From the IMG/VR virus record IMGVR_UViG_3300033145_000451, positions 1 through 33,487 of that record: DNA of 33,487 bases; one strand, written 5' to 3'. Of the stretch, positions 1 through 33,487 are shown one piece after another. A program made the position numbers and the translations under genes. The notes under the pieces were generated by a model that worked only from the letters and a program-made list of their open reading frames with translations, did not search any database and had not been told where the DNA came from. The DNA is from a virus. Every line of letters begins with the position of its first letter. The stretch's first letter is position 1.

Positions 1-114
1 AGATGATGACTTTAATAGTTATCTCCAGGGGTCAAGTAATGCTTTTTCTGTGATAACTAATAGCACTTCACGTCTGATTGTAGATAATACGGAAGCTGAA
101 TGGGGGTCAGCTTT
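1..114. repeat. Terminal direct repeat, left copy (circular join)
   Basis: These 114 bases are identical to 33374-33487. The reading frame that crosses them matches in both copies (offset 33,373, position 50 corresponds to 33423), so the contig is best read as a circle, or a circularly permuted genome, opened inside a gene. A true packaging terminal repeat is less likely because it would sit inside one long coding frame. Confidence 0.97.
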
Positions 115-1810
115 ACGCGTGGTATGGAAAGATCGTACTGAATTAAGCTCTCCAGCAGATGGTGACTTGAAGATTACTGATGATTTAGGAACTTCGGGCG
201 CAATCCTTGTTGCGAGTGGGGCTGATACACTAACTTTGGAAAAACTGGATTCTACTGATGGAGCCACATTGGGAATGGGTGATTCTGGTATTTTACAATG
301 GGGGGCTGCGAGTATAATTGAATCCGGCCAAGGTCTAATTATCAGCTCAGGGGATATAATGACTATTACTCAGACTGTGGATAATGCTGTAGATGGCGAA
401 GCGATGTTGGTACTTAATAGTGTGGGTGCTGCTGAAATGACTGCTAGTAGTGGCATACAATACGGCATTGATTTGTTGTCTGAAATATTACAGACCAACA
501 CTGCGTCATTTATTGGCTTTCATGTTAACGTAACTGATTCATCAAGTGGGAGCGGACAGGATTACCTAGCGAGTCTTGATTGGGATGGTACGACTATGCT
601 TACGATCACGGATGATGGTGGCCTTCATTTTGAAGGGAATATTTATGATACGAGTCCGACAACAGATGTAGACCCTGATGATAAACTGATCAAGGTAGAA
701 AACAGTTATTCACAAGGGGCGCAAACAGCAGCCGATTTATATTTAGCCGGTGGCATTGATGAGAAATACTGGACTTCAACAGACTTCGCTAATAGTACTG
801 GCGATAAAGTGCAGATTACGGTGGGGCGTTGCAATGCCGGTGTTTGTGCTGAGGCAGCAGTAGAATTTGAGGAGTCAGTAGATTGGGATTGTGATCTTAC
901 ATCTGATATTGTATGCGCTTGCGCTTTATATACCGCAGCATTAGGGAATGTTCCTGGCGTGACTATCGGGCGGCTCGATGGCACTTGTTCTGATGCCAAA
1001 GTCTATGCTCAACCGATTGATGATGAGACATACAGCGTCACTCTGGCAGTAACAGATGATGGAGGTGGAGGCGCAGGCTTAACAGCCACGAATGGAACGG
1101 ATGGAATTTTGAGATTAGTTACAGATAATGTAATTGTAGAGAATGGCAGCGCGCAGACGTTCATTTGTCTTGGTGGAACCACCACTGATGATGCTTGCAT
1201 ACGGTTGGATAGCGGCAACCTAGAGATTCGCGAGGGCGACAATAGTGCCTATTCGAATTTCAATGCGCGAGCTATACAGGCTACGACGGGGCCATTAACC
1301 AATGCGGCAACCGGCGATACGCGATGGAATACCCGGACACGATTATCCTCACCAGCCGATGGCAAATTTAAAATAGATAATAATCTGGAAAATTCCAATG
1401 TCTGTCTGGATGTAACTACAGACGGTGTACTTGCGCTTTATGATGGTGATTGTTCTAGCTCGGCTATATTGACTTTGACAGGGCGCTTACTTGAAGATCA
1501 AGGTGCAGATGTGGCCTCAGCAAATGATTTGACTCTTGGTTTGGATGGTAATAGTTTTGAAATCACAGGTGCAGTACAAATTAATAGAATTTCTAATGTT
1601 GGATGGCAAAATGGGAGTGAAATTACTCTATGGTTTTCTGGTGCGCCTACAGTTAAGCATGGGCAAGCTACTGGTGGCACTGATATAACTGTATTGCTTG
1701 ACCAGGGAAATGATTTTATACCAGCGGCCGGTGATGGAATGTGTTTAAAGTTAGGGGAAATAGGTGGCACTCAGGCTTGGAGAGGATGCGGAGTATATGA
1801 CTTAACATAA
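1..1810 (+). CDS. Giant tail-fibre-like protein, 3' part (continues from 31536)
   Basis: This is the C-terminal half of the reading frame that begins at 31536. Joined across the circle it encodes about 1,215 residues. The frame is open from base 2, and the GTG at base 50 is internal, not a start. The sequence is beta-rich, full of Gly, Asp, Thr and Ser, with short modules such as SSPADGDLKI and SSPADGKFKI recurring about 400 residues apart. A Cys-bearing domain around 784-1056 is a diverged copy of one at 33018-33300. The last 90 residues (from GNSFEITGAVQ to CGVYDLT) look like the beta-structured tip seen at the C terminus of many metagenomic phage fibres. Receptor binding is the likely role. 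The signal peptide at the N terminus (see 31536) is odd for a virion protein. Fibre family is fairly sure; receptor and assembly route are unknown. Confidence 0.85.
   Translation, partial: DDDFNSYLQGSSNAFSVITNSTSRLIVDNTEAEWGSALRVVWKDRTELSSPADGDLKITDDLGTSGAILVASGADTLTLEKLDSTDGATLGMGDSGILQWGAASIIESGQGLIISSGDIMTITQTVDNAVDGEAMLVLNSVGAAEMTASSGIQYGIDLLSEILQTNTASFIGFHVNVTDSSSGSGQDYLASLDWDGTTMLTITDDGGLHFEGNIYDTSPTTDVDPDDKLIKVENSYSQGAQTAADLYLAGGIDEKYWTSTDFANSTGDKVQITVGRCNAGVCAEAAVEFEESVDWDCDLTSDIVCACALYTAALGNVPGVTIGRLDGTCSDAKVYAQPIDDETYSVTLAVTDDGGGGAGLTATNGTDGILRLVTDNVIVENGSAQTFICLGGTTTDDACIRLDSGNLEIREGDNSAYSNFNARAIQATTGPLTNAATGDTRWNTRTRLSSPADGKFKIDNNLENSNVCLDVTTDGVLALYDGDCSSSAILTLTGRLLEDQGADVASANDLTLGLDGNSFEITGAVQINRISNVGWQNGSEITLWFSGAPTVKHGQATGGTDITVLLDQGNDFIPAAGDGMCLKLGEIGGTQAWRGCGVYDLT
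784..1056 (+). repeat. Fibre internal domain, copy 2
   Basis: About 85-90 codons resembling 33018-33300 at the protein level. Shared pattern: TGD, then WDCD, a D-(I/V)-(V/I)-C-x-C-x-LY stretch, GVT, R-x-DGTCSD-x-K, and a closing (T/S)DD. The four Cys positions are conserved. The DNA is strongly diverged, so this is an old domain duplication. Confidence 0.7.
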
Positions 1811-1827
1811 TATTTAATCGTAATTTT

Positions 1828-2643
1828 ATGAGAAATTTATTAAAACAATATCCATTAGCGGTATTTCTAGGTCTGTTATTATTTGCGACAACCGTTTTTG
1901 CGGGTACTTTTTCTGGGTATGCGCTCAAGGATGGGAATGGAGTTGTACTAGATGGAAATGGCGATGCAATAACATCAACCAAAAATGGGGAAATGTTTAT
2001 CTATGAGAATGCAGTTGCAACTACGATAGACGCGACTGAACAATGGCATTTAGGCGGGGGCTTTGAAACCGGGGATGTGGATGGCTGGACTTTTGAGGCT
2101 GCTGAAACCGGGGCAATAGCCTCTTTCGATGATTATAGTGGTACAGTAGCAGGAACAATTAAAGCTGTTGATGTTGAACACGGACTTTCAACCGGGGATG
2201 TTGTGAGTATTACGGGAACTGATATTGAGGTCGGTGACGCAGACAATTATCAAGGAGTGTATGAAATTACGGACATTGATGGGGGTAGTTTTTATTTTAC
2301 TAATGCAAATTGGAACGCAACTCAAACAGCGACATGGAATAAAGGCGCGAATCTTGTAGCTAGCGCAGACTCAGCAGGCATGTATTTAATCAATACTTCG
2401 AACTCCAGTACACCAGAAACGAATAGTGAAACATTCGACTGGAAAGTATACGTCAATGCTACGGCACAAACTGACACAGAGTCGCGTACAAATTCAAAAA
2501 ATGCTACGGAATGGAGTGGCACTAATGCGACTGCCGTAATAACAATAGCTGATGGTGACATTATTTCCGTTGGAGTAAAAAATCTTGATTCTGGTGATGA
2601 TATTACAGTGCGTTATGCAAATGTGAATTTACATAGATTATAA
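1828..2643 (+). CDS. Secreted fibre-like protein with signal peptide and FCCH-like module
   Basis: 271 residues. The N terminus is a classical Sec signal peptide: basic MRNLLKQY, a hydrophobic core LAVFLGLLLFATT, then a VFA-GT cleavage site near residue 26. Residues about 102-165 form a module with HGLSTGD, VVSITG, YQGVYEIT and FYFTN, the pattern annotated in many phage tail proteins as an FCCH-like (ubiquitin-activating enzyme E1) domain. A related module occurs in the tail hub at 9051. The last 70 residues are beta-rich and end in RYANVNLHRL, reminiscent of trimeric jelly-roll receptor-binding heads (inference). It starts 17 bases after the giant fibre stops, without an SD sequence, so the two are probably co-transcribed. 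Likely a fibre partner or surface-exposed adhesin; exact role unknown. Confidence 0.75.
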   Translation: MRNLLKQYPLAVFLGLLLFATTVFAGTFSGYALKDGNGVVLDGNGDAITSTKNGEMFIYENAVATTIDATEQWHLGGGFETGDVDGWTFEAAETGAIASFDDYSGTVAGTIKAVDVEHGLSTGDVVSITGTDIEVGDADNYQGVYEITDIDGGSFYFTNANWNATQTATWNKGANLVASADSAGMYLINTSNSSTPETNSETFDWKVYVNATAQTDTESRTNSKNATEWSGTNATAVITIADGDIISVGVKNLDSGDDITVRYANVNLHRL

Positions 2644-2654
2644 TTATTAAAAAA

Positions 2655-3137
2655 ATGAAGAAATTAAATAAAATTATTTTAGGAATATTCTTAATTTCTA
2701 CATTAATGAATGTTGGATATGCCGAAGGTTTTGGGATGGATGCTAAAATCGATGTTTATGATGCTGGCGAAGTCGCAAAATTTGAAACGAAAAAGGATTA
2801 TATTGTATCGCTTTGGAATCCTGACAATCCAAGTGTTGTATGTAATAATACCATTGCTTTGAGATTTGCCGGAAGGCAAAAATGCTTTACTGAGGCTGGA
2901 TATTCGGAACTGAAAACAGAATTAACAAATGAATTCAAACGTAACAAAACAGAAAAAGAGAAAATGGCAAATGGCAAATATGCAGATATGGATGTCAACT
3001 ATCTGATTCCGTTTTTCGTTGTGCTAAATAAAGAGGTTAGCGCGCGGGGCATGAATTCAATTGACTTTTCGAAGCTCGGTAAAAATCCTATTTTTCGTAT
3101 TATTGTGCGAAGTTATTTAATAAGTTTACTTGGATAA
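2655..3137 (+). CDS. Exported protein of unknown function (signal peptide)
   Basis: 160 residues. A signal peptide is clear: MKKLNKI, hydrophobic ILGIFLISTLMNV, and a GYA-EGF cleavage site near residue 24. The mature part is mixed alpha/beta with two Cys (in VVCNN and QKCFT) about 15 residues apart that could form a disulfide outside the cytoplasm. I do not recognise a family. It follows the exported protein at 1828 by 11 bases and precedes two small membrane genes. It could be a third component of the exported fibre block, a superinfection-exclusion factor, or a lysis accessory protein. Only export is supported by the sequence. Confidence 0.65.
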   Translation: MKKLNKIILGIFLISTLMNVGYAEGFGMDAKIDVYDAGEVAKFETKKDYIVSLWNPDNPSVVCNNTIALRFAGRQKCFTEAGYSELKTELTNEFKRNKTEKEKMANGKYADMDVNYLIPFFVVLNKEVSARGMNSIDFSKLGKNPIFRIIVRSYLISLLG

Positions 3138-3148
3138 TCAAAAAAATC

Positions 3149-3352
3149 ATGGAAAAAATAAAAGACATGCTGGTCGCGATCTTCACTCATAAAAGAATGA
3201 AGTCATTTTATTGGAGAACCTTGGATATGGGAGTAGTAGCATTAGCAGATGTATCAGTACAGATATTCACAGACTTCAATATTCCAAACTGGATTACACT
3301 TGGAGTTGGTTTGGTTCTCGGTGAAATTACAAAGGCTTTAAATAAAAAGTGA
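3149..3352 (+). CDS. Small membrane protein, putative holin
   Basis: 67 residues with a basic N terminus (KDMLVAIFTHKRMKSF) and two apolar stretches, one weak (LDMGVVALADVSVQIF) and one clear (WITLGVGLVLGEI), ending in Lys-rich KALNKK. Size, charge distribution and possible hairpin topology fit small phage holins. The next gene overlaps its TGA stop and is also a membrane protein, as in holin/accessory pairs. The lysin candidate lies about 10 kb downstream at 13643, so this is not a compact lysis cassette. Holin is an inference from topology only. Confidence 0.5.
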   Translation: MEKIKDMLVAIFTHKRMKSFYWRTLDMGVVALADVSVQIFTDFNIPNWITLGVGLVLGEITKALNKK

Positions 3353-3600
3353 TGGGAGAATTCATCAATAAATACTCAATAAAGATTCAATTCGGAATGG
3401 CCATAATTGTCATTGGTACGATCATAAGTACGACTCTATATATCGGAGGTTATTTCAATCAGATAGAATTGAATGAGAATGCGATTGCAAGCCAGAAAAA
3501 CGAGATTATCAAAATCCCTATACTAGAAAATGATCTCTCGAACATGAAGGAAAATATAGGCGAAATAAAAGATGATGTGAAGGAATTATTAAAAAAATAA
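3352..3600 (+). CDS. Membrane-anchored coiled-coil protein (XhlA-like)
   Basis: 82 residues from the ATG at 3352, whose A is the last base of the preceding TGA stop. A GTG one codon earlier is possible. One strong transmembrane segment (IQFGMAIIVIGTIISTTLYI) is followed by a heptad-like helix (ENAIASQKNEI through DDVKELLKK). One membrane helix plus a coiled coil resembles XhlA-type hemolysin accessory proteins or a spanin-like subunit. Being coupled to the putative holin gene supports a role in lysis, but no diagnostic motif is visible. Confidence 0.55.
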   Translation: MGEFINKYSIKIQFGMAIIVIGTIISTTLYIGGYFNQIELNENAIASQKNEIIKIPILENDLSNMKENIGEIKDDVKELLKK

Positions 3601-3601
3601 C

Positions 3602-4171
3602 ATGGCTTTAACTACAGCAGCAGCCGTAAAATCACACCTTGGGATTGTAGGGTCTACTCATGACACTCTACTCGGGAGCCTTGTAACTCAAGTCGATTTA
3701 TTCGTTGAGCTTGAAACAGGAGTAAAAACAGGGGCAGCAAGTGGGAATTTAGATATTACTAATGAAATTGCAGATCACGATGGCTCGCTTACTGTGGTTT
3801 GTAAGCATAAGCCTATAAATTCAGTAACAAAAATTGAGTATAAAATTAGTGTTGATACTTGGGAAGAATACGATGATGAAACAATTGGAAGTGTTGATAC
3901 TCATAAAGAGAAAATCTTTACTCAATATTATGTAACTGGAAAAGGTAAAAGGAATTTACGGCTGACATATAATGCCGGATATATAACTGCTAATGTACCA
4001 GAAGATTTACAGTTATGCGCAATTTTAATTATCGCAACATTGTTTAATCACCGGAATCAGGTTGGATTTGATAATATAAATATACTTGGCTTATCACAAA
4101 CAATGTCAAAGAATGATTATATTTTTATAAAAAAGATTTTAACAAAATATAAAAAATGCTATGCAATATAA
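3602..4171 (+). CDS. Head-tail connector (gp6-like DNA-packaging adaptor)
   Basis: 189 residues. The N terminus (ALTTAAAVKSHLGI, then HDTLLGSLVTQVDLFVE) is the helix pattern of HK97 gp6 / SPP1 gp15-type adaptors, which form the ring under the portal. The middle part with LTVVCKHKPINSVTKIEY and the helix VPEDLQLCAILIIATLFNHR are also typical. It lies directly before the closure and gp10-like genes, the usual order, but is separated from portal and capsid genes by the fibre/export block. The first residues after ATG follow an A-rich leader with no SD. Confidence 0.75.
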   Translation: MALTTAAAVKSHLGIVGSTHDTLLGSLVTQVDLFVELETGVKTGAASGNLDITNEIADHDGSLTVVCKHKPINSVTKIEYKISVDTWEEYDDETIGSVDTHKEKIFTQYYVTGKGKRNLRLTYNAGYITANVPEDLQLCAILIIATLFNHRNQVGFDNINILGLSQTMSKNDYIFIKKILTKYKKCYAI

Positions 4172-5643: not shown

Positions 5644-7059
5644 ATGGGAGAATTTTACACAAGAAGAGGGTCTTTATCTATAAAAAAAGAAGCAGCAGTT
5701 GGTACACCTATCACACCGGATACTTTTATCTATTTTAATAATGAGGATATTTCAGTAGATTATCCATATACCCCGATGCAACCTGTCGCAGCTCAACGTA
5801 GCATGAATATACGAGCAGCAGACGGTGCTATTCCCGCGCCAGAAGGCACAATTAATTTGAATATTGAGCCTGACACTTTGCCATTATTACTTTTGGGCTT
5901 ATTTGGTGGTGTGACTTCGGCTACTATGTTGAGAATAAGTAATATTGTGGGAGCTTTTGTAGTTGGCCAGGATTTAACCTTTGCGCCTTCAACTGCGACA
6001 GGGAGTGTGCAATATGTTGGCGATGATTTCTTATTATTTACTGTTTTAACAGGAACCCCAACGGAAGCGGATGGCATAACGCAGGCAGTTTCAGGAGCGA
6101 CAGCGGATGTTGATGAGTATGATGCATCTATCTATGGCCATGCGGGAGGGCTGCCGGCAGAGATAGGCACAGGACATTCTTATTCAATTCAATTCAATTA
6201 TGCCGAAAGCGCAGTAAGATATTGGGGAGCTTATATTTCGGGGATTGATACACTAGGGCAGGCAGACAATGTTCTTACGGCTGGATTGAAGATCATGGCT
6301 TTAGGGCAATTCCGTCATGCAGAAGTAAAGGCGATTACAACAGCGGCAGGGGGGGCGCAAAATATTACTGTCGATCAAACAAAAGGATTAGTCGCAGCAG
6401 ATTCAATAAAATGTTATAGGCCAAGCACAGGCGCATTTATAGATTTGCCCTCAGCAGGGGTAAAAATCCACACAATAGATAGCATCACTAATTCAACAGT
6501 ATTTGTAGTGACGGTTTTACATGCCGATTTAGCGGTTGGCGATTTAATTATGCTTGCTCCACAGACCGCGACATACTCTGTTGATAAGGAGTTTGTGTGG
6601 ATGGGTGGCTCTGAAATATTCACAGATATTGCGGCTGCCGGAACTCTTGCAGGAGCAAAGGTTGAGGATTTTACCTTTGCACTTATGCATGAATTTGAGT
6701 CGCGCCATGCCGCGCAAGGTGGCGATTTTGCCGACAGATTTCCGTACAGGCTCTTACAGAAAGGATTGACCGGAAATGGAACGATCAAGCTATTCTATCA
6801 AGATGAGGATTATATAAGACGAATGAGAGCAAATGCCGCATTAGCTTTAAAATTAATTGTGCTTGGTAGTGAGATAGGCTCTACTGGATATGAGCATGAA
6901 TTTAGGCTTTATATACCACAGGCACAGATTGACCCTTATAATACAAATTTAGATATCGATAAAGTGATGGATGAGGATATTCCGTTTAGCATGTTATACG
7001 ATGCCACAGACGCACACCTTGCAGAGTTTCTTGTGGTAAATGATACAGCATCATATTAA
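5644..7059 (+). CDS. Major tail tube protein
   Basis: 471 residues. It begins GEFYTRRGSLSIKKEAAVGT, followed by TPDTFIYFNNEDISVDY, the usual opening of tube proteins of this class, and ends in a hydrophobic beta region (IPFSMLYDATDAHLAEFLVV). The large middle holds inserted modules: residues about 98-160 with SGATADVDEYD, resembling the ATG-type beta insert common in phage tube proteins, and about 240-300 with QNITVDQTKGLVAADSIKCY, similar to surface add-on domains. It is followed by the chaperone pair and tape measure, the canonical order tube-G/GT-tape. Polymerised rings form the tail through which DNA passes. Confidence 0.8.
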   Translation: MGEFYTRRGSLSIKKEAAVGTPITPDTFIYFNNEDISVDYPYTPMQPVAAQRSMNIRAADGAIPAPEGTINLNIEPDTLPLLLLGLFGGVTSATMLRISNIVGAFVVGQDLTFAPSTATGSVQYVGDDFLLFTVLTGTPTEADGITQAVSGATADVDEYDASIYGHAGGLPAEIGTGHSYSIQFNYAESAVRYWGAYISGIDTLGQADNVLTAGLKIMALGQFRHAEVKAITTAAGGAQNITVDQTKGLVAADSIKCYRPSTGAFIDLPSAGVKIHTIDSITNSTVFVVTVLHADLAVGDLIMLAPQTATYSVDKEFVWMGGSEIFTDIAAAGTLAGAKVEDFTFALMHEFESRHAAQGGDFADRFPYRLLQKGLTGNGTIKLFYQDEDYIRRMRANAALALKLIVLGSEIGSTGYEHEFRLYIPQAQIDPYNTNLDIDKVMDEDIPFSMLYDATDAHLAEFLVVNDTASY

Positions 7060-7068
7060 CTATAAAGC

Positions 7069-7437
7069 ATGGGGAAAAATCGATTTGTAAGTAACGACAA
7101 AAAGAGAATTGAATTAACTGATAATGACTGGGTAGACATTAGAGATGAGTTGAGCTTTAGTGATTTTAATAACATTTATAGCGAAATTGAGACAGAGGAT
7201 GATGTTGTAAAAATTGCGATGCCTATGCTAAAAGCAGCCTTACTTGACTGGAGCTTTAAGAATGGTAAAGATAAAAAGCTGGATTGCACGCCAGAAAACA
7301 TTGAAAGGCTTGATGCAGAAACTGCGACTTTTCTGATCAGAAAAGTCATAAAGCATTATATGCCAGAAAAAAAAAGCTCGCGATCATCGAAGCAAACATC
7401 AAAGGACACCCCCGGAAAGGGGCAGGGGAAGAAATGA
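7069..7437 (+). CDS. Tail assembly chaperone (G-like)
   Basis: 122 residues, acidic helical core (DWVDIRDELSFSDFNNIYSE, AMPMLKAALLDWSFKNG) and a basic tail. It lies exactly where lambda G-type chaperones lie, between tube and tape measure. These proteins coat the tape-measure protein during tail assembly and are absent from the mature virion. A run of nine A residues (7367-7375) near its end permits a -1 frameshift into a second product; see 7069-7580. Confidence 0.8.
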   Translation: MGKNRFVSNDKKRIELTDNDWVDIRDELSFSDFNNIYSEIETEDDVVKIAMPMLKAALLDWSFKNGKDKKLDCTPENIERLDAETATFLIRKVIKHYMPEKKSSRSSKQTSKDTPGKGQGKK

Positions 7438-7580: not shown

Positions 7581-9054
7581 GATTAAGGCTACTGATAAGG
7601 CATCTGCCAAAGTTAGTAAGGTGAAGGGGTCGATGTTGAGCTTAAAAAATGCGGTGATAGGCGTGGGTGTTGCTTACGGTGCTGTCAAAATTAAGAATTT
7701 CATAAAAGAGTCCATCCAGCTTTTTACTGTTCAAGAAAAAGCAGAAGCGAGACTGCTTTCATCAATTAAAAATTTAAAGGATTTGGGGGAGGGGTACTCA
7801 GACAATGAGGTTGGGATTCAATCTTTAAATTGGGAATTGAAGGAATATGCAAAACACCTACAAACAGTCACTACAGTTGGAGATGAGGAGACTATATCCG
7901 CTATGGCAATGCTCGGGAGTTTTCAGTTAACAGGAGAAGAGATAATGAAGTTGACTCCCGCCCTTTTAGATATGAAGGCTGCAACCGAAAAAACAACCGG
8001 CGCCCAGGCTGACATGAATGATTTGGCAAATGCAATGGGGAAAGCTCTAAGTACTGGGGCTGGGGCTTTAAGCCGATATGGCGTTGTTTTAAGTGATGCT
8101 CAAAAAATCCAATTTGATGCAGCCGAAGGGATGGAGAGGGTAGCTTTATTAGCTGAAATTATGGGGGATAACTTTGGGGGTGCTGCGGAAGAAATAAGAA
8201 ATACAACGGCTGGGGCGTTGACTGCGGCAGCGAATGATTGGGGGGATTTCAAGGAAACAGTTGGAGCATTGCTTGCTCCACTATTATCTGATATCGCTGC
8301 TTGGATTTCTAATGTAGCCATAGCACTTCAAGAGGGAATGGCGCGACTAAAAGAATTATGGGATGAAGATTGGCATGGAATCAGGACAACATTGGAAGAT
8401 TTAATGCTTTGGATTAATGAAGAATTTAAACCATTTATGGAAGATTTGTTTGTTGTGTTTGGCGTGGCCTTGGCATTATTTAAGGTTAATTGGGAAATGA
8501 CATGGACAGCAATTAAGGCATTTTTATTACCTATATGGACAGCAATTCAGATTATTATTTTGACGACATGGGAAACAATAACAACTTTACTTAGTGCTGC
8601 TATTAAAGTATTTCAAGGTGATTTCAAGGGGGCATGGAATGATATTAAGGATGGATTTAGCGATATCTGGGAAGGGATTATTGGAATCGTTGAGCGTGCT
8701 AAAGATAAAATCCTTGCTCTTGTCGATAAAATAATCGGCCCGGTTAAAATGGCCATTAATCTTGTAAAAAATCTGCTTGGAGTATCAGGGGGTGTTGCTG
8801 ATGTCGGCGCCATAGCCGCTCCAAGGGCGGTGACAAGGGCAGAGGGTGGAGCATTGGGAGCAGGACAATTATCACTTGTTGGAGAGCGTGGAGCAGAGTG
8901 GTTTGTGCCTAAGACAGCGGGAAATATAATCCCTAACAATATGCTGGGTGGAGTCACGATCAATATTAATGGCATAATCTCAAGTAAAGAAGTGGCAGAG
9001 GAATATGCTGACGTCATCATCAAGGAGTTAAAACTAAGTACAAAGGTTGTATGA
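7555..9054 (+). CDS. Tape measure protein
   Basis: 499 residues. N terminus with KIKATDKASAKVSKVKGSM is typical of siphovirus tape measures; the middle is long helix with apolar segments (LLPIWTAIQIIILTTWETIT) and repeated Trp-bearing helices (GAWNDIKDGFSDIWEGIIGI). The C terminus has GERGAEWFVPKTAGNIIPNN, a very common tape-measure ending. Length sets tail length; at about 0.15 nm per residue, 499 residues implies a short tail of roughly 75 nm. The hub gene starts within its stop (ATGA). Confidence 0.9.
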   Translation: MATETLNIKIKATDKASAKVSKVKGSMLSLKNAVIGVGVAYGAVKIKNFIKESIQLFTVQEKAEARLLSSIKNLKDLGEGYSDNEVGIQSLNWELKEYAKHLQTVTTVGDEETISAMAMLGSFQLTGEEIMKLTPALLDMKAATEKTTGAQADMNDLANAMGKALSTGAGALSRYGVVLSDAQKIQFDAAEGMERVALLAEIMGDNFGGAAEEIRNTTAGALTAAANDWGDFKETVGALLAPLLSDIAAWISNVAIALQEGMARLKELWDEDWHGIRTTLEDLMLWINEEFKPFMEDLFVVFGVALALFKVNWEMTWTAIKAFLLPIWTAIQIIILTTWETITTLLSAAIKVFQGDFKGAWNDIKDGFSDIWEGIIGIVERAKDKILALVDKIIGPVKMAINLVKNLLGVSGGVADVGAIAAPRAVTRAEGGALGAGQLSLVGERGAEWFVPKTAGNIIPNNMLGGVTININGIISSKEVAEEYADVIIKELKLSTKVV

Positions 9055-11468
9055 TTTTATTATATATAAATGATGTAGACAGGACAGGTGATCTCATTAG
9101 AAACTCAATCCGTACTACAAATCTTATTCAACAGCGAGCCGATTCTTGTGATTTTGGGATTTTTCAAAACACAAAGCCGAGTGAGAATCAAGATGTAAGG
9201 CTTTTTATACATGATACTATCGCGAGTTTTGCTGGTACGACTGTCACTCTTAATGGATATTACCAAAAAAATATAGATCAATTCTATCCTGGACAAGTTT
9301 TATATATCAGGATTGGCGATGCAGACGAAGAAAAGGTGACAGTTCAAAGTTACGATGAAGATAATTTGCAGATTATTTTGGAAGCTGCGCCATCAGGTGC
9401 AGTAGCTCAAGGTGACAAGATCGGGGTGCTTGATTTTGGTGGGGTGGTGAGTCGTGTTACTGATGAGAATGTACATGCCTTGACACAGTTAGAATATAGG
9501 GTTTCTTGCTCAGATTACACAAAGATTTTTGATAAAAAGCTCATTTCCGATACTTGGGCAGATGTTGACTCAAGGCATATTATTAATGATTTCGTGAATA
9601 CAACAATCAACTTGAACAACACTATTGATAATATGGATTATGATGACAATGCAGCAATTCAGGCAGAGTGGATTGAGGGCGGTGATGGTGATAATCCTAC
9701 GATTGATAGCACTGATTTTATTGAGGGGGATGCTGCTGGTGTATTACCCTGGACAAATGCAGGAGGCACAGCAACATTCGAGGCTACACCAACAAGCAGG
9801 GATATTTCTGATCTTACAGGCGCGGCGGCTGGAACGCCCACAGAAGGGAATTTAATGGTTTGGATTAAAACAAGTGATCAGGCAAATATCACATCACTCA
9901 AAATCAGAATTGGCTCTGATAATGGAAATTATGCAGAGGTTGATATTGATATTCCATCCGGTACAGATTATGAATATTTTAGTGGAAAATTAGCTGATGC
10001 GAGCATGACGGGGAACCCCGACTGGACTGATGTTGATTATGCGGCAGTCGCAATTGTAGAGACAGGGGATGGAGAGATAAAAATTAATGGGATTAGAGTT
10101 AATGCAGAGAAGAGTTTTACCCTTTATAATGTAAAGCCTACCCCGACTTTCGATGACTTTAGAAGCCCACAGCTTAAATCAACCAGCCTTATACAGTTGC
10201 TTGCGAAAACCTGGGATTTCCTTTGGTACATTGATTATGAAAGGGATATCCATTTTATTAATATTGAAGATGAGGTTTCACCATTTGGATTAAATGATGC
10301 CTCGGCAAATTTTATTGATTTAGAAATTGAAACCGATGCAAGTCAAATTGGCAATCGTGTCATTATTAGAGGGGGTGAAAAAACATCCGACAGTACATAT
10401 TCACAGGCTATTCCGGGGGATGGTGCTAAGCGTGAATGGCTTTTAAAAAATAAATTCAAGAATCTTGTTGTTCTGATTGATGATATAACCGATGCACATG
10501 CTGCCGAAGCAGGCACAACCGACACAAATATTAAAATCACAGGGCATGGCTTGAGTACAGGGGATTACATCACAAACCAAGATCGCCGCGAAGAGGTTAG
10601 AGAAATTACAAAAGTCGATGTTGATAATTTTACGGTTGAGTCAATACCAGGGCAGATTCCTACTGATACAATTACATTTTTTACAATCCCTAAATCTGTT
10701 GGAGTCGAGGGCTTAGTAGATGAAACCACAGTTGACTATGTTTCAAATTCAAATGAAAAATCTATAAGAGCTACAGACAGCGAGGCAACCTTACTTCTTG
10801 GGATGGGAATTCTCTTTGTATACAATGAGCGAGTACCTATTCGAATTCAATATTCAAATGGCGGGAGTATAGCAACACTCAAAGCCTCCGGGTTTGGGGA
10901 TGGTATTTTTGATCTTGACCCTGTGACTGATCGCAACATCCAAGATGTCGGAACTGCTCTTGCAACTGCACAGGCCAAAGTAAGGGAATATAGCGAAGCA
11001 ACTATAGAGGGGCGTTTCAGGACAGATTCTTATGGATTAAAAGCTGGGCAAATTTTGCATATCGTAGACTCAACAAGGGGAATCGATGATAATTATGTAA
11101 TTCAGAGAGTTAAAAAGGCTCAAGTATCCGGGGCGTATTCTGATTATTTTAATTATACAGTCACTTTTGGAACCTCATCTTTTGGAATTATAGAATTTTA
11201 TCAAAAACTACTAGCGACAAAGGACTCAATAGAATTAAATGTTGATGACATTGTTGAGACTTACACGACCTCGGATGAAGTTGTTGAAGTTAGTGATGTC
11301 AATGCTGTAGCTACAGATGGGGGATTCCAAAGTTCGAAGATTGCGGAAACAGTTGAAGTCAGTGATGTCAATCAAGTCGTTGCTTATCCTAAAGGTACTT
11401 GGCGATATGAGCCGAATGGTGCAGGCCAACCATTGGAATCGCGGTATAATTTATGTGATTATGGATAA
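9051..11468 (+). CDS. Tail hub / distal tail protein with inserted domains
   Basis: 805 residues. The N-terminal part (LLYINDVDRTGDLIRNSIR, DVRLFIHDT, YRVSCSDYTKIFDKKLI) and TSLIQLLAKTWDFLWYIDYE near residue 390 fit gp27/Tal-like hub proteins that close the tail tip. Between them (about residues 205-355) is an inserted beta module resembling a galactose-binding or carbohydrate-binding fold (inference). Near residues 496-550 an FCCH-like module (ITGHGLSTGDYITN, EITKVDVDNFTVES) is inserted; a related one is in the exported protein at 1828. The C terminus carries two copies of VEVSDVN and a Trp/Arg end. It acts in host attachment and channel opening. Confidence 0.7.
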   Translation: MILLYINDVDRTGDLIRNSIRTTNLIQQRADSCDFGIFQNTKPSENQDVRLFIHDTIASFAGTTVTLNGYYQKNIDQFYPGQVLYIRIGDADEEKVTVQSYDEDNLQIILEAAPSGAVAQGDKIGVLDFGGVVSRVTDENVHALTQLEYRVSCSDYTKIFDKKLISDTWADVDSRHIINDFVNTTINLNNTIDNMDYDDNAAIQAEWIEGGDGDNPTIDSTDFIEGDAAGVLPWTNAGGTATFEATPTSRDISDLTGAAAGTPTEGNLMVWIKTSDQANITSLKIRIGSDNGNYAEVDIDIPSGTDYEYFSGKLADASMTGNPDWTDVDYAAVAIVETGDGEIKINGIRVNAEKSFTLYNVKPTPTFDDFRSPQLKSTSLIQLLAKTWDFLWYIDYERDIHFINIEDEVSPFGLNDASANFIDLEIETDASQIGNRVIIRGGEKTSDSTYSQAIPGDGAKREWLLKNKFKNLVVLIDDITDAHAAEAGTTDTNIKITGHGLSTGDYITNQDRREEVREITKVDVDNFTVESIPGQIPTDTITFFTIPKSVGVEGLVDETTVDYVSNSNEKSIRATDSEATLLLGMGILFVYNERVPIRIQYSNGGSIATLKASGFGDGIFDLDPVTDRNIQDVGTALATAQAKVREYSEATIEGRFRTDSYGLKAGQILHIVDSTRGIDDNYVIQRVKKAQVSGAYSDYFNYTVTFGTSSFGIIEFYQKLLATKDSIELNVDDIVETYTTSDEVVEVSDVNAVATDGGFQSSKIAETVEVSDVNQVVAYPKGTWRYEPNGAGQPLESRYNLCDYG

Positions 11469-12177: not shown

Positions 12178-12466
12178 AAAAGATAATATTAAAATTTCTT
12201 TCGACCCTGACCCGGTTTGGCGAAAGACTAAATTCGGGGCTGGCAAAGATAAGGAGGGGAAAGCTCTGGCAAAAATAATTATCAGAAAAGGGATTACTAT
12301 AATAGAAATTGATGGCAAAAAATATAAGATGAAGGGGAATTTTATAGTTGAAATGCAGAATTTTATGGTACAAAAAAATGCGAAAAAGAAAACTGTAAAA
12401 CGAAAAAATGCGAAAGAAAATATATTGAAATTTTATAACTCTTGTAAGGAATGGCAGACCTCTTAG
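12170..12466 (+). CDS. Small basic protein in the tail-tip operon, unknown function
   Basis: 98 residues, strongly basic, with a short beta part (KIIIRKGITIIEIDGKKYKM) and a C-terminal helix rich in Lys. It overlaps the gene before by eight bases and the gene after by 16, so it is clearly translated as part of the operon. I recognise no family; a tail accessory protein or a chaperone for the next fibre protein are possible. Confidence 0.55.
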   Translation: MLKKDNIKISFDPDPVWRKTKFGAGKDKEGKALAKIIIRKGITIIEIDGKKYKMKGNFIVEMQNFMVQKNAKKKTVKRKNAKENILKFYNSCKEWQTS

Positions 12467-13626
12467 CAAATTCAGCAACTGTTACAGATGGTGATACAAT
12501 CCTGGACGATCATCAAAATAATCTAAGACTAGATATCTTAGAACAGGCTGGGGAATATAGAGATTCAACTGGTGCGGCAGATGCTTATGTTGTGGCTGAC
12601 GATGCTCAAGTTGCTTCTCTACAGGAGGGGCAAATTGTTATTTTCAATGCGAATTTTACAAATGCAGGAGCAATTACCATAAATTATGGGGGCTTTGGCG
12701 CAAAGCCAGGAAAGAAACATAACGATCAGGCTTTAGTGGCAGGGGATATAGAGAGCGGGCAAATTACCGCATGGAGGTATGATGGCACAAACATGCAAAT
12801 GCTCACACCTACAGGGATAGATGGGAAGAATTTGACATTAAAGACAGGAACATTTGGAGAAACGATTGACGGCACAACAACACCGGTTTTGGTTTATTTA
12901 AAAGCAGCTGATGGGAAATGGTATAAGTCAGATGCCGATGCTACGGAATCAACATATAAAACAGAAGGATTTGCCATAAATAGCGGGAATGACACTGATA
13001 TTGCTTTAATTGTTACAGGAGGGATTCTTGGTGGATTCGCCGGAATGACAGAAACAGCAGATCAGTTTGTTAGTGGCACAGCCGGCGAAAGGACTGAAAC
13101 TCCTGGCACTAATAAGCATAAGATCGGGGTTGCCTGGAGTGCGACAGAGATTAAAATTGAATTAGGAAATAAAATGATGGCTGGTGTCCTCACAGACTTA
13201 GATACAGTAAATAATGCCAATAATGACCAGATTATTACTATAGGCTTTAGAGCGAAGATCATCGAGCTTGATTTCTATATACAAGGGCATGATTCCGCTG
13301 TTGCTACAGCACATTTTTATGTTTCAGTAGGAAGAGGAACCTGGGAAGAAACAACACTTATATCTTGGTTCGGGTTCGCTAATCAATCAAATCAGGGGGG
13401 TGCTGGTGATGATCAGGAGCCGCAAGTTTTGTCATTCTTAGATGCGAGTATTGAAACGGCTCCGGCAGCAGGAACGAGTGGGGGTAATGCCTCAGAGAAA
13501 AAAGTGACAATATCAATTCCGACTGTAACTGATACGACCTTCGTTGTGCGACAAGCAACAGCCGGTGGAGCAGACCCCGGAAGTCAATGCCGATCTAGGA
13601 TTGCATGGCGCGTACGGGGATATTAA
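12451..13626 (+). CDS. Tail fibre / tip protein
   Basis: 391 residues. Opens with ADLLANSATVTDGDTILDDH, QNNLRLDIL, the anchor-like start seen in many phage fibres, followed by repeated beta segments (YVVADDAQVASLQEGQIVIF, AITINYGGFGAKPGKKH, TEGFAINSGNDTDIALIVTG) and a Gly/Thr-rich receptor-facing end. Located immediately before the lysin, the usual place for a receptor-binding protein. Unlike the giant fibre at 31536 it has no signal peptide, which makes it the better candidate for the conventional virion fibre. Confidence 0.7.
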   Translation: MADLLANSATVTDGDTILDDHQNNLRLDILEQAGEYRDSTGAADAYVVADDAQVASLQEGQIVIFNANFTNAGAITINYGGFGAKPGKKHNDQALVAGDIESGQITAWRYDGTNMQMLTPTGIDGKNLTLKTGTFGETIDGTTTPVLVYLKAADGKWYKSDADATESTYKTEGFAINSGNDTDIALIVTGGILGGFAGMTETADQFVSGTAGERTETPGTNKHKIGVAWSATEIKIELGNKMMAGVLTDLDTVNNANNDQIITIGFRAKIIELDFYIQGHDSAVATAHFYVSVGRGTWEETTLISWFGFANQSNQGGAGDDQEPQVLSFLDASIETAPAAGTSGGNASEKKVTISIPTVTDTTFVVRQATAGGADPGSQCRSRIAWRVRGY

Positions 13627-13642
13627 AATTTAACTTATTAAA

Positions 13643-14299
13643 ATGATCACACCAATTAAACAATCAGACCCTCGCTGGGCAAATTTTTACATCGGAAATT
13701 CAAGGGCAAAAATGAAGAGATATGGATGTTATATCTCATGTCTATGTATGGCACTAGAGAAATTAAGGGGGTATTTTTGCGACCCGCGTGATGCTGTTAG
13801 ATTTTGGCTTTTCACAGCTCAAGGCAAACTCTCCTCAAAAATGAAGGATTTTAAAGGAATGACTCTTGTTAAAAAGGCTTCATACTATGATAAAAAGGAG
13901 GTCGAGAAATACGCCAATGACCCAGACAAAGCGGCTATCTTAGTCTTAGATAACGGGGCGCATTATGTTTATGTTGAAAATTTCAAGGGAACGACCTTAA
14001 CGCATATTGACCCTATAGATGGTGAGGCTCACACTTATTCATCACGATTAATAACAGGCATGAGGCTACTTGAGAAAAAGGATATTTCAGCCCCAGAGTG
14101 GATGCAGAAATTTATAGAAAAAGTGAAAGAAGCAGGCTTAAAAATTACAGACCCACTTGAGGAAGCAACCATTATAAAAATAGAAGAAATTTTATTTGAT
14201 CTAAAAATCATAGACAAAAAAGAGGGCTGGATTTCTATCGGAAGATGGCTGGTTATTATGGATAAGATTTCTAAATATTGGAAAGACGTGCTAGAATAA
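13643..14299 (+). CDS. C39-like cysteine peptidase, probable endolysin
   Basis: 218 residues. Residues 7-12 QSDPRW, the GCYISCLCMAL helix with candidate nucleophile Cys29, His107 in NGAHYVYV and Asp123 in HIDPIDG give the order Cys-His-Asp of peptidase C39_2 (papain-fold) proteins. The C-terminal 75 residues are helical and may bind cell wall. It ends the late transcription unit, just before a terminator, where phage lysins often lie. Peptidoglycan cross-bridge cleavage is the likely job, but C39 domains also process peptides or are tail-associated, so endolysin is inferred from context. No signal peptide, so it would need a holin. Confidence 0.7.
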   Translation: MITPIKQSDPRWANFYIGNSRAKMKRYGCYISCLCMALEKLRGYFCDPRDAVRFWLFTAQGKLSSKMKDFKGMTLVKKASYYDKKEVEKYANDPDKAAILVLDNGAHYVYVENFKGTTLTHIDPIDGEAHTYSSRLITGMRLLEKKDISAPEWMQKFIEKVKEAGLKITDPLEEATIIKIEEILFDLKIIDKKEGWISIGRWLVIMDKISKYWKDVLE

Positions 14300-20615: not shown

Positions 20616-20810
20616 ATGAAAAAACTATCACTCATCCTGTTAATTCTGTTAATGACAGGGTGTACAACTCGAAGCGATCTACTTAGAAATAAAGAGGCTT
20701 TTACAAAAGAGGCTCGAAAATGTGTAGAGAGTGGAGGGATACCACTCTTCTATTATGAAGAAGGTTCTTTTTCACAGCTAACCTCAATTTCTTGTATTTA
20801 TAGAAAATAA
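20616..20810 (+). CDS. Small lipoprotein
   Basis: 64 residues. KKLSLILLILLMTGC is a clear lipoprotein signal with lipobox LMTGC (Cys15). The mature part is about 50 residues with two further Cys (ECV-like RKCVESGG and SISCIYRK). Phage lipoproteins are often spanin outer subunits or superinfection-exclusion factors such as T5 Llp or TP901-1-type Ltp; here position among early genes suggests exclusion rather than lysis (inference). Confidence 0.65.
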   Translation: MKKLSLILLILLMTGCTTRSDLLRNKEAFTKEARKCVESGGIPLFYYEEGSFSQLTSISCIYRK

Positions 20811-29057: not shown

Positions 29058-30221
29058 ATGGACAAAGAATTAACTGAAAAAGAAAAAGGGAAAGTGTGTT
29101 GTTTTGAAGATTTGATAAGTATTGCAGGCAAAGGGAAAGAAGAAAAAGAAATGACAGACGACCAGAAAAAGAAAGATATTGCAAGAGCCTTGGGGATGGA
29201 GCGTAAAGCCGATGAGGTTTTGTCTACCATCAATAATACAAATTGGTACGATGCTTATGGAATGACCAATGACATCAAAGATTTGACACCGAAATATGGT
29301 AAAGTTTTGGCTCAACTCACTGAGGGATATGAGGGAACTGATCTACCTACCAGCTTTCCAGTACCGTATGACATCACAGATTATTACATGCAGGGAAAAA
29401 GTGAGTGGGAAGATGAGGGTCCACCCGCATTCAACCTCAAAACTCAGACTGATAGTGGTGCAACAATCACTCAAACAACAATGATACTTGAGTTCGGTGT
29501 GAGTGATAGAATGATAAAACACAGTACAGACAAAGGATTATATGAGAAACTTTTAGCAAAATTGACAAAATCGTTGACTAAATCAGTTGAGGGAATGATT
29601 ATCAATGGTGATACCGAAGCTGGTGGAACCGGAAATGTGAATAGTGATGATCAAGCCGCTGCGACAACCTTTGTGGCAGATGGTGGCGCGGCTTACCACG
29701 CGACTTTGCTCGATCATGGAATAAGAGAAAACGCGGTAACAAACTCCAAAACTAGCAATATCGGTGGATTTGATTCTGATGATATGCTTACGGTTGTGAA
29801 AATCTTGGCAGAAAGATACCAAGAGGAATTTGATGATTTGTTATTTATCTCAAATCCTAAAACTCATCTTTCAATGATGGCTGATGATGGATTCAAACTG
29901 GCAACTTCGAGGAGTAAACCAGTCGCGATTGATTCAGGAGTTGTCGATAAACCTTGGAATATTGATTTGGTTGTTTCGCCAGAAATGAAATTGACAGAAG
30001 CGGATGGTAAACTTTCAGGAGGTACACTAACAAACAACGTACTCGGTCAATTCGGGGTTGTTGTGAAAAAAGCGATCAGATGGGGATATGGACAGGACTT
30101 CAAGCTCGAAGTCAATAGAGTACCGGGATATGGGTTCCGCATGGTTGCAACTGTTGAAGTTGGCTTTGTGATACTTGATCTAGCAAACACTTGTGCGCTA
30201 GGAATTAATGTGACAGTGTAA
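29058..30221 (+). CDS. Major capsid protein (HK97 fold)
   Basis: 387 residues. A charged N-terminal helix region (residues 1-60, EKEMTDDQKKKDIARAL) is followed by the coat core: LTEGYEGTDLPTSFPVPYD, ATITQTTMILEFGVSD, KLTKSLTKSVEGMIINGDTE, DDLLFISNPKTHLSMM, and the P-domain/A-loop end RWGYGQDFKLEVNRVPGYGF. This is the HK97-type arrangement in the expected place behind the protease. The protease probably trims the N-terminal region. One Cys pair (VCCFE) occurs at residues 14-15. No scaffold-only gene lies between. Confidence 0.88.
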   Translation: MDKELTEKEKGKVCCFEDLISIAGKGKEEKEMTDDQKKKDIARALGMERKADEVLSTINNTNWYDAYGMTNDIKDLTPKYGKVLAQLTEGYEGTDLPTSFPVPYDITDYYMQGKSEWEDEGPPAFNLKTQTDSGATITQTTMILEFGVSDRMIKHSTDKGLYEKLLAKLTKSLTKSVEGMIINGDTEAGGTGNVNSDDQAAATTFVADGGAAYHATLLDHGIRENAVTNSKTSNIGGFDSDDMLTVVKILAERYQEEFDDLLFISNPKTHLSMMADDGFKLATSRSKPVAIDSGVVDKPWNIDLVVSPEMKLTEADGKLSGGTLTNNVLGQFGVVVKKAIRWGYGQDFKLEVNRVPGYGFRMVATVEVGFVILDLANTCALGINVTV

Positions 30222-30970: not shown

Positions 30971-31528
30971 ATGGGTAGAGAAGGATATACAAAAAAAGGT
31001 AAAGCCCCTGTGGCTTATTTATTCGAAGTTGCACTTGCGGCAACTCCCGAAAGCTTACAGCCAGAATTGATAAATAATACGATTGCTTTGGTAACAGGCG
31101 CGCCAGCCACACTAACAGATACCGGAAACAAATGGCTATTAAAGGGATTCAAAGCCGGGGATAGAATTGAAATATCTGGCTCGACTGCGGATGATGGACA
31201 GTACACTATAGCTACTGTTATTGCTGGCACAATCACTTTAATAACAGGTGACACATTGACAGGTGAAGTAGCCGGAACAAATACACTCACAATCACAAAA
31301 CTTGGTAGGGTCTTTTGTAGAGAAATAACACTTCAAAATATAAAGGGGAATACAAGCGCAGAATTGGCAGTCTCAAGATCACCAGATGTTGATCTAACTA
31401 CAGATTACAGCTTTAAAATAGCAAAATTAAATACTTTGACTTATCATGGCATATATTTAGATGAGCTTTATGTTGACGTTGGCACAAATGCCGACAAGGT
31501 GTATGTCGAATATACTCCCGTCCTTTAA
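30971..31528 (+). CDS. Small virion protein, putative decoration or fibre-anchoring protein
   Basis: 185 residues, mostly beta. It contains a small barrel-like insert (GFKAGDRIEISGSTADDGQY, TIATVIAGTITLITGD) similar to the modules in the tail hub and the exported protein, and a C part with CREITLQNIKGNTSAELAVS and DELYVDVGTNADKVYVEYT. Its start has only seven bases between its stop and the giant fibre start at 31536, so the two are co-transcribed. Decoration of the capsid or an adaptor for the fibre are both possible. Confidence 0.55.
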   Translation: MGREGYTKKGKAPVAYLFEVALAATPESLQPELINNTIALVTGAPATLTDTGNKWLLKGFKAGDRIEISGSTADDGQYTIATVIAGTITLITGDTLTGEVAGTNTLTITKLGRVFCREITLQNIKGNTSAELAVSRSPDVDLTTDYSFKIAKLNTLTYHGIYLDELYVDVGTNADKVYVEYTPVL

Positions 31529-31535
31529 CATAACA

Positions 31536-33487
31536 ATGATGAAAAAACTATTTTTGAGGTTTGCTGTTCTTATTCTAATACTCTTTTCTATAGGGAATGT
31601 TGGCTTTGCTGTAGAATTAAACTCACAGTTAGGCGTGCAAACTTATACGACCTTTGAGGGTACTGCAAACATAGTTCCGACTGACCCCACTTACACTCTC
31701 GGCTCGGCAACAACAGAATGGGCAGATATATTTACCGTTGATCTGCATGTTTCCAATTTATTCTATTTTGCCGGTGCGATGGCTACTGATTTAGATATAG
31801 ATGGGTGGAATATTATAATGGACACAAATGGCGATTTTCTAATTATGAATGATCGTCACGCGTCAGTTGCCGATGACTCTTTCTCTATCGGAAAAACCGG
31901 CGCCCTCGATTTTACCTTTGCAGTTGATGAATTTACTACTTTAACCGGTAGCAATACTACTATTGAGGATGGAACTTTTGATATGGGAACAGCCGCGCTT
32001 AATGCCGGTGTTTTTTCTATGACAGACGGTGATGAAACAGGTGATGACACTTTTATTATAGACTTATCGCATGATGGGGCTGGTGATGTTTCTTTGACGA
32101 CAAGCGATGGCAATGTTGACATTGTTCCGGGGGATGGTGTCGATATTACACTTCCCGCTACTGGTGAGGTGTATATTGATGCGACAACTCTAAGAACTGG
32201 CACTACAGAGGCTTTAAGTATAAATTTTGGTGTAGATACGACAACTCCAACTGATGATGTGGCTGTATTTTCACTGGCACAAACGAGAGTTATTGGAGAC
32301 ACAGGTGGCTCTTATGGAATAGACACCGAAATGGCTTTTGGGAACATGGCCAATGGCGAGTGGAGTTATGTTTTTGGTGGCGATTATTCCTCTTCACAGT
32401 CCACAACCGCAACATCAAATGCCGCATTTTTATATGCGGGAACACCTAGCGCAGTTAGTGCGCAAGTAAATGATTATGGGGTATATGTTGCGAGTGGATA
32501 TGATACGGCTGGTTATTTCGATGGGGGAGTATTAGCGACAGGAGAGGTATTAATTGCAAGCGCAACGCCTTCCGATTTAATCCTAGATAATACGACCACG
32601 GGAGGGGATGCAGATTCTGGCTATGTGACGTGGAGAGGAAATGATGGGGCGGCTGATACCGAACTCGACATGTCGATTTTACTTGATGTGACCACAACTA
32701 CAGATTACAAACTTGGATTTTATAATGATGGGAAAGTAAGCGAGGTCGCTAGCTTAGATGAGAGTGGAAATTTACAAGTTGATGGAGCATTCACACCCGG
32801 CTCAATAATAATGGGTGGCAATCTTGATATGGATGAGAATGACCTTATTAATTTAGATGATATATGGGGCGATGCAATAGCCACGGATGCAGTCCCGCGC
32901 GTAACAGTAATTGGTACACAACCGATTTTTGTTGAGCCAGCAGCGACTAATGTTGTTGGTTCTAATCTTGTACTAGCTCCAAGTCCTGGAGTGCGGACAC
33001 TTGAGGGGGTAACTAAGGCTGGCACAACTGGAGATACGTTGACGTTTGATGTGTATATCAATGGTGTGGTTTCTCAAACAATTAAGACTGAGGGATTAGG
33101 TTCACCCGATGGGTGGGATTGCGATGGTGCTGCGACTGATGTTATTTGCGTCTGCAATCTTTACGATTTACTGGTGGGTGCGGGAGCAATTAATGGTGTG
33201 ACGGTTACGCGAACAGATGGAACATGCAGCGATGAAAAACTTACATTCACGATTACTCCAGGAACTTCGCATTATTTAAGAATGGCTACTTCAGATGATA
33301 CAAACCTAGATATGACAGTGACTATAGCGAATGATGGATTTGTTTTATTGGGGGAAGGGCGGAAGTTGATGTTAGATGATGACTTTAATAGTTATCTCCA
33401 GGGGTCAAGTAATGCTTTTTCTGTGATAACTAATAGCACTTCACGTCTGATTGTAGATAATACGGAAGCTGAATGGGGGTCAGCTTT
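31536..33487 (+). CDS. Giant tail-fibre-like protein, 5' part (continues at 1-1810)
   Basis: The frame is open from ATG 31536 to the end, and continues at the start of the window, about 1,215 residues in total. Start: MMKKLFLRFAVLILILFSIG then NVGFA-VEL, a full Sec signal peptide with cleavage near residue 26. Then TYTLGSATTEWADIFTVDLH, typical of fibre knobs; many repeated Gly/Asp/Thr beta modules; and a domain at 33018-33300 with WDCD and DGTCSDEK that recurs at 784-1056. Such a long beta-fibre at the border of head and tail genes should be a receptor-binding protein. A signal peptide would send it out of the cytoplasm, which conflicts with normal assembly. Confidence 0.85.
   Translation, partial: MMKKLFLRFAVLILILFSIGNVGFAVELNSQLGVQTYTTFEGTANIVPTDPTYTLGSATTEWADIFTVDLHVSNLFYFAGAMATDLDIDGWNIIMDTNGDFLIMNDRHASVADDSFSIGKTGALDFTFAVDEFTTLTGSNTTIEDGTFDMGTAALNAGVFSMTDGDETGDDTFIIDLSHDGAGDVSLTTSDGNVDIVPGDGVDITLPATGEVYIDATTLRTGTTEALSINFGVDTTTPTDDVAVFSLAQTRVIGDTGGSYGIDTEMAFGNMANGEWSYVFGGDYSSSQSTTATSNAAFLYAGTPSAVSAQVNDYGVYVASGYDTAGYFDGGVLATGEVLIASATPSDLILDNTTTGGDADSGYVTWRGNDGAADTELDMSILLDVTTTTDYKLGFYNDGKVSEVASLDESGNLQVDGAFTPGSIIMGGNLDMDENDLINLDDIWGDAIATDAVPRVTVIGTQPIFVEPAATNVVGSNLVLAPSPGVRTLEGVTKAGTTGDTLTFDVYINGVVSQTIKTEGLGSPDGWDCDGAATDVICVCNLYDLLVGAGAINGVTVTRTDGTCSDEKLTFTITPGTSHYLRMATSDDTNLDMTVTIANDGFVLLGEGRKLMLDDDFNSYLQGSSNAFSVITNSTSRLIVDNTEAEWGSA
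33018..33300 (+). repeat. Fibre internal domain, copy 1
   Basis: Protein-level match of about 85-90 residues with 784-1056 (TGD, WDCD, DVICVCNLY, GVTVTRTDGTCSDEK, SDD). The four Cys positions are the same in both. See copy 2. Confidence 0.7.
33374..33487. repeat. Terminal direct repeat, right copy (circular join)
   Basis: Identical to 1-114. The copies cover the same codons of the giant fibre gene in the same frame. Confidence 0.97.

Follow-up and report, generated by a model that had tools for sequence, protein, structure and literature searches.

Gene organization of the locus

The window, by which we mean the whole stretch of DNA analyzed here (33,487 nt, IMG/VR record IMGVR_UViG_3300033145_000451), encodes a fibre with a predicted signal peptide whose gene seems to be cut at both ends of the record. 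Since the record has a terminal repeat of 114 bases, the two parts represent one gene running from 31539 to 1810. Its start is at 31539 and not at 31461, and the encoded protein is 1214 aa long. The genes of the block, its neighbors and two genes elsewhere in the window are:

29058..30221, +, major capsid protein, encoded before the block (67% identical relatives; placed by gene order behind a Pfam S78 prohead protease)
30971..31528, +, small head/decoration-like protein of beta type that lacks a signal peptide, immediate upstream neighbor of the fibre (PHROG head protein, E 2e-4)
31539..33487, +, N-terminal part of the signal-peptide fibre (continues at 1–1810 through the terminal repeat; 1214 aa in total)
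1..1810, +, signal-peptide fibre, C-terminal part with a fibre-tip-like end
1828..2643, +, predicted exported protein with a C1q/TNF-type jelly roll and an FCCH-like insertion, 271 aa (predicted signal peptide, homologs, model)
2655..3137, +, predicted exported periplasmic-type protein with two Cys residues, lysis-accessory candidate, 160 aa (predicted signal peptide, homologs)
3149..3352, +, small holin-like protein with two hydrophobic segments (topology; relative in L001; positional counterpart in L066)
3349..3600, +, holin/antiholin- or spanin-like protein, one N-terminal hydrophobic segment followed by a charged coil (topology; counterpart in L066)
3602..4171, +, head-tail connector bounding the block (Pfam Phage_connect_1, E 2.4e-6; PHROG head-tail adaptor, E 9e-13)
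12451..13626, +, a further tail fibre, labelled by reading, that lacks a signal peptide (the L037 phage has a counterpart with 71% identity)
13643..14299, +, putative C39-like peptidase outside the block, candidate endolysin (motif reading only)

The capsid protein has no match in Pfam. The 13643 protein, labelled a putative C39-like peptidase by its motif, has no peptidase match in Pfam or PHROG.

The block lies after the head genes (29058 for the capsid protein, 30291, and 30971) and before the connector gene at 3602. The intergenic gaps from 30971 to 3602 are, in order, 10, 17, 11, 11, -4, and 1 bases, and with gaps of at most 17 bases the block and the adjoining head and connector genes look as if they were transcribed as one unit. 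An earlier note on this DNA had described five genes inserted between capsid and connector. A tightly packed run of five genes is indeed found there, between the head genes and the connector, but the block appears to include the preceding gene, 30971, as its first. The accompanying statement that capsid and connector genes are usually contiguous holds in the outgroup phage phi10:1, which has the major capsid gene, two small ORFs and then the connector gene.

A Bacteroides-type promoter pattern, which may not be the type of the host, was found at six places on the plus strand (207, 210, 1529, 4873, 5864, and 6647), none of them directly before the fibre start. The start sites of the window are A-rich, and Shine-Dalgarno-like motifs were seen at 5/45 of them versus 8.5 expected. 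An Rfam search of the window gave no match and a tRNA search found no tRNA. At 23036–23911, after a ParB-like gene at 22444 (labelled by reading, with no clear library match), the window encodes a TET-associated glycosyltransferase (TAGT; Pfam PF20691, E 7e-47), a family linked to DNA base modification.

Predicted signal peptides

Signal peptides were predicted with a home-made heuristic and not with SignalP. The heuristic looks for a basic N-region, an uncharged hydrophobic run and small residues at positions -3/-1, and lipoboxes are allowed. Signal peptides had been claimed for the proteins encoded at 1828 and 2655, and both were recovered as strong predictions, as MRNLLKQYPLAVFLGLLLFATTVFA followed by GT (VFA-GT) and MKKLNKIILGIFLISTLMNVGYA followed by EG (GYA-EG), respectively. 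The N-terminus of the window fibre, MKKLFLRFAVLILILFSIGNVGFA followed by VE (GFA-VE), is a strong predicted Sec signal peptide.

In ten stretches of related phages, a score of at least 3.8 was reached by 20 of the 26 block ORFs, some of these 20 being membrane anchors and not cleaved signals, versus 2/169 non-block ORFs and 0/195 N-terminally shuffled ORFs. According to the same predictor the block proteins have the features of type I signal peptides (basic N-region, hydrophobic core, AXA-type site), and canonical charge, hydrophobic core and AXA-type site are present in the fibres of all 10 lineages described below. The exported companions of the fibre diverge in sequence and have kept their signals. 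The Bacteroidetes Q rule is not followed by the proteins of the window; a Gln after the predicted cleavage site is seen only in the fibres of G001 and L072.

The window fibre contains 16 Cys residues, and each 2655-type protein (3/3) has two in its mature part, as expected for a location outside the cytoplasm. The fibres of L057, L066, and L069 contain no Cys.

The fibre and its upstream partner

No match was found in Pfam or PHROG for the parts of the window fibre that were searched, and scans of the fibres of relatives against the same libraries gave no meaningful match. The cultured phages in the collection searched contain no match to the fibre (first 649 aa as query) or to 1828, and no catalytic domain was found in 1828 or in any fibre scanned. 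The mature N-terminus of the fibre is conserved, and the shaft and tip are variable. As a separate tail fibre without signal peptide is encoded at 12451 and also in the L037 phage, the exported fibre appears to be an extra one.

With the training set and copies excluded, a profile of 30971 matched at E <1 only ORFs adjacent to and upstream of the fibre, namely in L070 (E 7e-11) and L072 (E 1.9e-5). The small proteins upstream of the fibre in G001 and L009 have no detectable relation to 30971.

Relatives with the fibre between decoration and connector genes

Relatives were collected from capsid scans (67% identity, plus 48–54% to a second reference). A signal-peptide fibre follows the decoration gene in 8/8 distinct lineages that reach past that gene (window, L037, L039, L057/L058, L063, L065/L066, L069, and L070). 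The interval from capsid to connector is complete in the window, L037, L057, L066, and L069, and is cut by the contig end in L039, L063, and L070. Contigs of the same group that end too early to be scored are L040, L043/L047/L064, L046, L067, and L075. In L048, 230 bases remain after the gene at the decoration position, with no signal-peptide start within those. Low-complexity ORFs with Trp/Ala/Ser/Asp and Trp/Leu/Arg repeats are found at the contig starts of L042 (2–355) and L058 (1–183), and L108 has three tandem lipoprotein-like genes (7683–9821) directly after a distantly capsid-like gene.

In L037 the fibre (1414 aa) is followed by a 79-aa Rz-like protein, an exported 132-aa protein of the 2655 type, a 59-aa two-segment protein and a 64-aa one-segment protein. 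The L066 block is built from a fibre of 1274 aa, a 76-aa protein, an exported 131-aa protein (2655-type), and two 74-aa proteins, one with two segments and then one with one. The L057 block contains a fibre of 1097 aa, an exported 100-aa protein, proteins of 84 and 109 aa, and then a two-segment protein, while that of L069 contains a fibre of 571 aa, an exported 435-aa protein with a CBM_4_9 domain, and proteins of 164, 88, and 80 aa.

The earlier note had seen an inserted cassette here. The block is conserved and its core is inherited together, but it is not an insertion in the window phage alone, and an insertion of the moron type, missing from close relatives, is not what the 8/8 lineages with a signal-peptide fibre display. 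Judged from these sequences, the block is an old, fixed feature of the phage group.

Relatives at other genome positions

A profile of the mature fibre N-terminus, built without the signal peptide, was searched against 6275 ORFs. Ten distinct lineages were found at E <1e-10, all with a signal peptide and none without. These are the eight lineages above and L001 (record G001), all of which are in the profile, and L072, which is outside it (E 6e-11).

The gene order in L072 is portal, a 273-aa protein, signal-peptide fibre, tyrosine recombinase, a 68-aa two-segment protein, a 2655-like protein, and a minor head protein. The C-terminus of the 273-aa protein matches the 30971 profile (E 2e-5). The tyrosine recombinase (6448–7287; Pfam Phage_integrase, E 7e-31) is directly flanked by the genes for the exported fibre and the holin-like protein and could serve in switching or moving of the module. 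In G001, the tail genes and tail fibre are followed by the signal-peptide fibre, a 1828 homolog, an exported 345-aa protein, a one-segment protein, a peptidase and a 3149 homolog. A related fibre probably adjoins the portal gene in L009; it matches only when the signal peptide is included in the profile. L088 (33.8 kb), from the same wider group, has no such fibre.

The capsid-connector gap of G001 holds four other genes, glycosyltransferase- and nitroreductase-like by reading only, as in L006. Such four-gene sets, also labelled by reading only, occupy this gap in L035 (9179–12333) and L006 (7875–11058), and the gap thus seems to be a settling place for gene sets.

A check of co-occurrence and gene order had been proposed in the earlier note, to be decided against a cassette if relatives carried the proteins without signal peptides or if the genes were scattered. 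We found the core inherited together at three genome positions and a signal peptide in every lineage with the fibre; neither of the two outcomes named in the note was observed.

The 1828 protein and its predicted jelly-roll fold

The fold predicted for 1828 is a C1q/TNF jelly roll, clear by both Foldseek and VIA-align despite a low-confidence model (pLDDT 60.6). With VIA-align the model gave Z 13.9 to a tail protein of cyanophage A4 (9k09; 2.6 Å over 133 residues) and Z 13.8 to the short tail fibre of cyanophage A-1(L) (8ke9), and its nearest structural neighbors are fibre tips of phages and surface proteins of the exosporium. Homologs with a signal peptide were identified in L001 (36–40% identity) and L063 (35%). 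An FCCH-like module common to 1828 and the tail hub, as had been suggested, is weakly supported: the pattern HGLSTGD...EIT..D...F aligns, with 2/500 shuffles scoring as high, but the whole-protein alignment is not significant.

In L069 the slot of 1828 is taken by the exported 435-aa protein, whose CBM_4_9 carbohydrate-binding domain is detected at E 1.8e-6. Going by the gene orders compared, 1828 occupies a variable slot, and the fibre and the small membrane genes are the fixed core.

Protein 2655 and the lysis-like genes

L037 and L066 each encode, at the corresponding position, a homolog of 2655 with a signal peptide (alignment; the L037 pair has z 5.8), relatives being detected by position and profile only. 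A direct scan found no viral relatives of 2655, and a search of 12 records found none. The 2655 model (pLDDT 52.4) is too poor for a structure search. Sequence matches in the PDB (protein A, E 0.014, and weaker ones) were judged to be due to chance. Links to proteins of L006, L071, L072, L074, L077, and L096, located between portal and minor head or protease genes, are sub-threshold (E 0.035–1.7; hhalign probability 13–39%). Given these scores and two shared motifs in swapped order, we call those proteins 2655-like only. The 2655 protein has no lipobox. A small lipoprotein gene, with a lipobox by the heuristic, is present in the early region of the window (20616–20810) and is a possible outer spanin.

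The relative of 3149 in L001 (z 19) starts 3 bases after a peptidase gene (PHROG peptidase, E 1e-4); this adjacency is seen only in G001. The L066 positional counterpart of 3149 is a weak match to a PHROG holin (E 0.023) and that of 3349 matches a PHROG holin/anti-holin (E 1.5e-5). The window 3349 itself matches PHROG holin families weakly (E 0.049–0.095), the window proteins giving E 0.049 or worse, and the 79-aa protein of L037 has Rz-like PHROG matches (best E 0.0016). No endolysin-like gene was seen in the blocks of the window, L037, L057, L066, and L069. By their L066 counterparts, their topology and the G001 gene pair, 3149 and 3349 look lysis-like, with most holin E-values >0.01. Together with 2655 they look like a lysis sub-module and not like surface display genes.

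Possible roles of the exported fibre module

The sequences show that the predicted signal peptides are conserved, that the genes are tightly packed with the late head genes, and that relatives have a gene set in common at three positions. Our preferred reading, to which we give slightly less than an even chance, takes the block for a module, expressed late, in which exported fibre proteins are coupled to a lysis sub-module and which acts on the envelope before the cell is lysed. Late in infection, the fibre and 1828 would pass through the inner membrane by way of the host Sec machinery. The two proteins may then trimerise, either on the outer surface or within the periplasm, and lysis would be prepared by the holin-like 3149, the holin/antiholin- or spanin-like 3349 and the periplasmic 2655. 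The most likely role would be for the exported proteins to act on the envelope of the producing cell just before lysis, where receptors might be occupied or altered. Progeny would then not be trapped by the dying cell or by its debris, and a second phage would not be admitted. Alternatively, within the same reading, the fibre might bind virions after release. Of the surface-display cassette in the earlier note, the exported structural-type proteins in a conserved block are supported, but the placement on the cell surface as opposed to the periplasm is not, and three of the five genes look like lysis genes.

Several points argue against envelope action. The fibres of L057, L066, and L069 are free of Cys, the holin-like assignments are weak and the endolysin is no more than a candidate, L088 lacks the fibre, and L048 shows no signal-peptide start in the bases left after its gene at the decoration position. 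A conserved mature N-terminus with a variable shaft and tip is also expected of a virion-attached fibre, and 30971, the neighbor of the fibre, resembles a head protein and carries no signal peptide. The last two points fit a virion assembled in two compartments, in which the fibre and 1828, once exported, would mature in the periplasm and attach through the conserved N-terminus to finished capsids, via 30971-type proteins, when the compartments mix at lysis. The fibre gene sits among head genes, and the lysis-like genes of the block would time the mixing. The small proteins upstream of the fibre in G001 and L009 speak against such docking, as they are not detectably related to 30971, and we know of no phage with this kind of assembly, which we also count against it. 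We keep it as a possible, if rather doubtful, account because 30971 is of head type without a signal peptide and because its pairing with the fibre survives relocation to a second position (L072). The module would then comprise the decoration partner, the exported fibre, the exported jelly roll and the lysis proteins, and it is similarly doubtful that capsids made in the cytoplasm and receptor-type fibres sent by Sec to the periplasm are joined only at lysis, with the module an inherited unit moved between positions.

That the exported proteins instead help to break the outer membrane, S-layer or capsule at lysis, like spanins or depolymerases, seems unlikely: the holin-like, holin/antiholin-like and Rz-like small proteins of the block and the exported CBM_4_9 protein in the 1828 slot of L069 would suit such a role, but neither 1828 nor the fibres scanned have a catalytic domain. 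Ordinary virion fibres with hydrophobic N-termini that merely mimic signal peptides would explain the location beside head genes, and the predictor is a heuristic. We consider this improbable in view of the canonical charge, core and AXA-type site in 10/10 lineages, the rarity of comparable scores among shuffles (0/195) and other ORFs (2/169), and the companions that keep their signals though their sequences differ. Least probable of all, with hardly any weight in our view, is a role in lysogenic conversion, in which the genes would be morons whose adhesins coat a host that survives. The tyrosine recombinase beside the L072 fibre suggests that some relatives may be temperate, but the block is tightly packed with late head genes, no integrase was recognized by reading among the ORFs of the window, and two scans of bacterial genomes, by portal and by capsid alignment, found no prophage relative.

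The fibres of tailed phages are generally assumed to be made in the cytoplasm. A long fibre whose export signal is kept across a phage group, paired with lysis-like genes and found at several positions, would point either to a built-in blocking of receptors when the cell lyses or to virions completed outside the cytoplasm.

Comparison with known systems

The terminase is 34–41% identical to those of Flavobacterium phage 11b, Cellulophaga phage phi10:1, and Polaribacter P12002L, and resembles those of phages of Bacteroidota. The head gene order of these three phages is similar to that of the window, but the capsid-connector interval holds no fibre block in phi10:1, which has two small ORFs there, or in phage 11b, which has six, one of them small and lipoprotein-like.

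The fold predicted for 1828 is shared with the C1q/TNF jelly rolls of A-1(L) (8ke9), A4 (9k09), and BxpB (8d02), with Z 13.2–13.9. What sets 1828 apart from the two cyanophage proteins, which are tail parts, is its signal peptide and its FCCH-like insertion.

No description of an exported-fibre module was found in searches of an open-licence subset of the literature. Phage proteins with signal peptides are already known (PMC10367356; PMC6116005). Sec-exported phage proteins occur in the Nixviridae of Porphyromonas gingivalis (PMC10367356); in the passages considered they are unknown proteins that follow the Bacteroidetes Q rule, unlike the present phages with a Gln only in the G001 and L072 fibres, and they are not described as fibres or as part of a lysis-gene block. 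Among the closest known systems are also the exported endolysins, Lys44 of fOg44 and the SAR endolysins: late phage proteins with a signal peptide that pass through the membrane ahead of lysis and act together with holins (PMC6116005). The proteins exported in the present phages would be a fibre and a jelly roll and not, as in those systems, muralytic enzymes.
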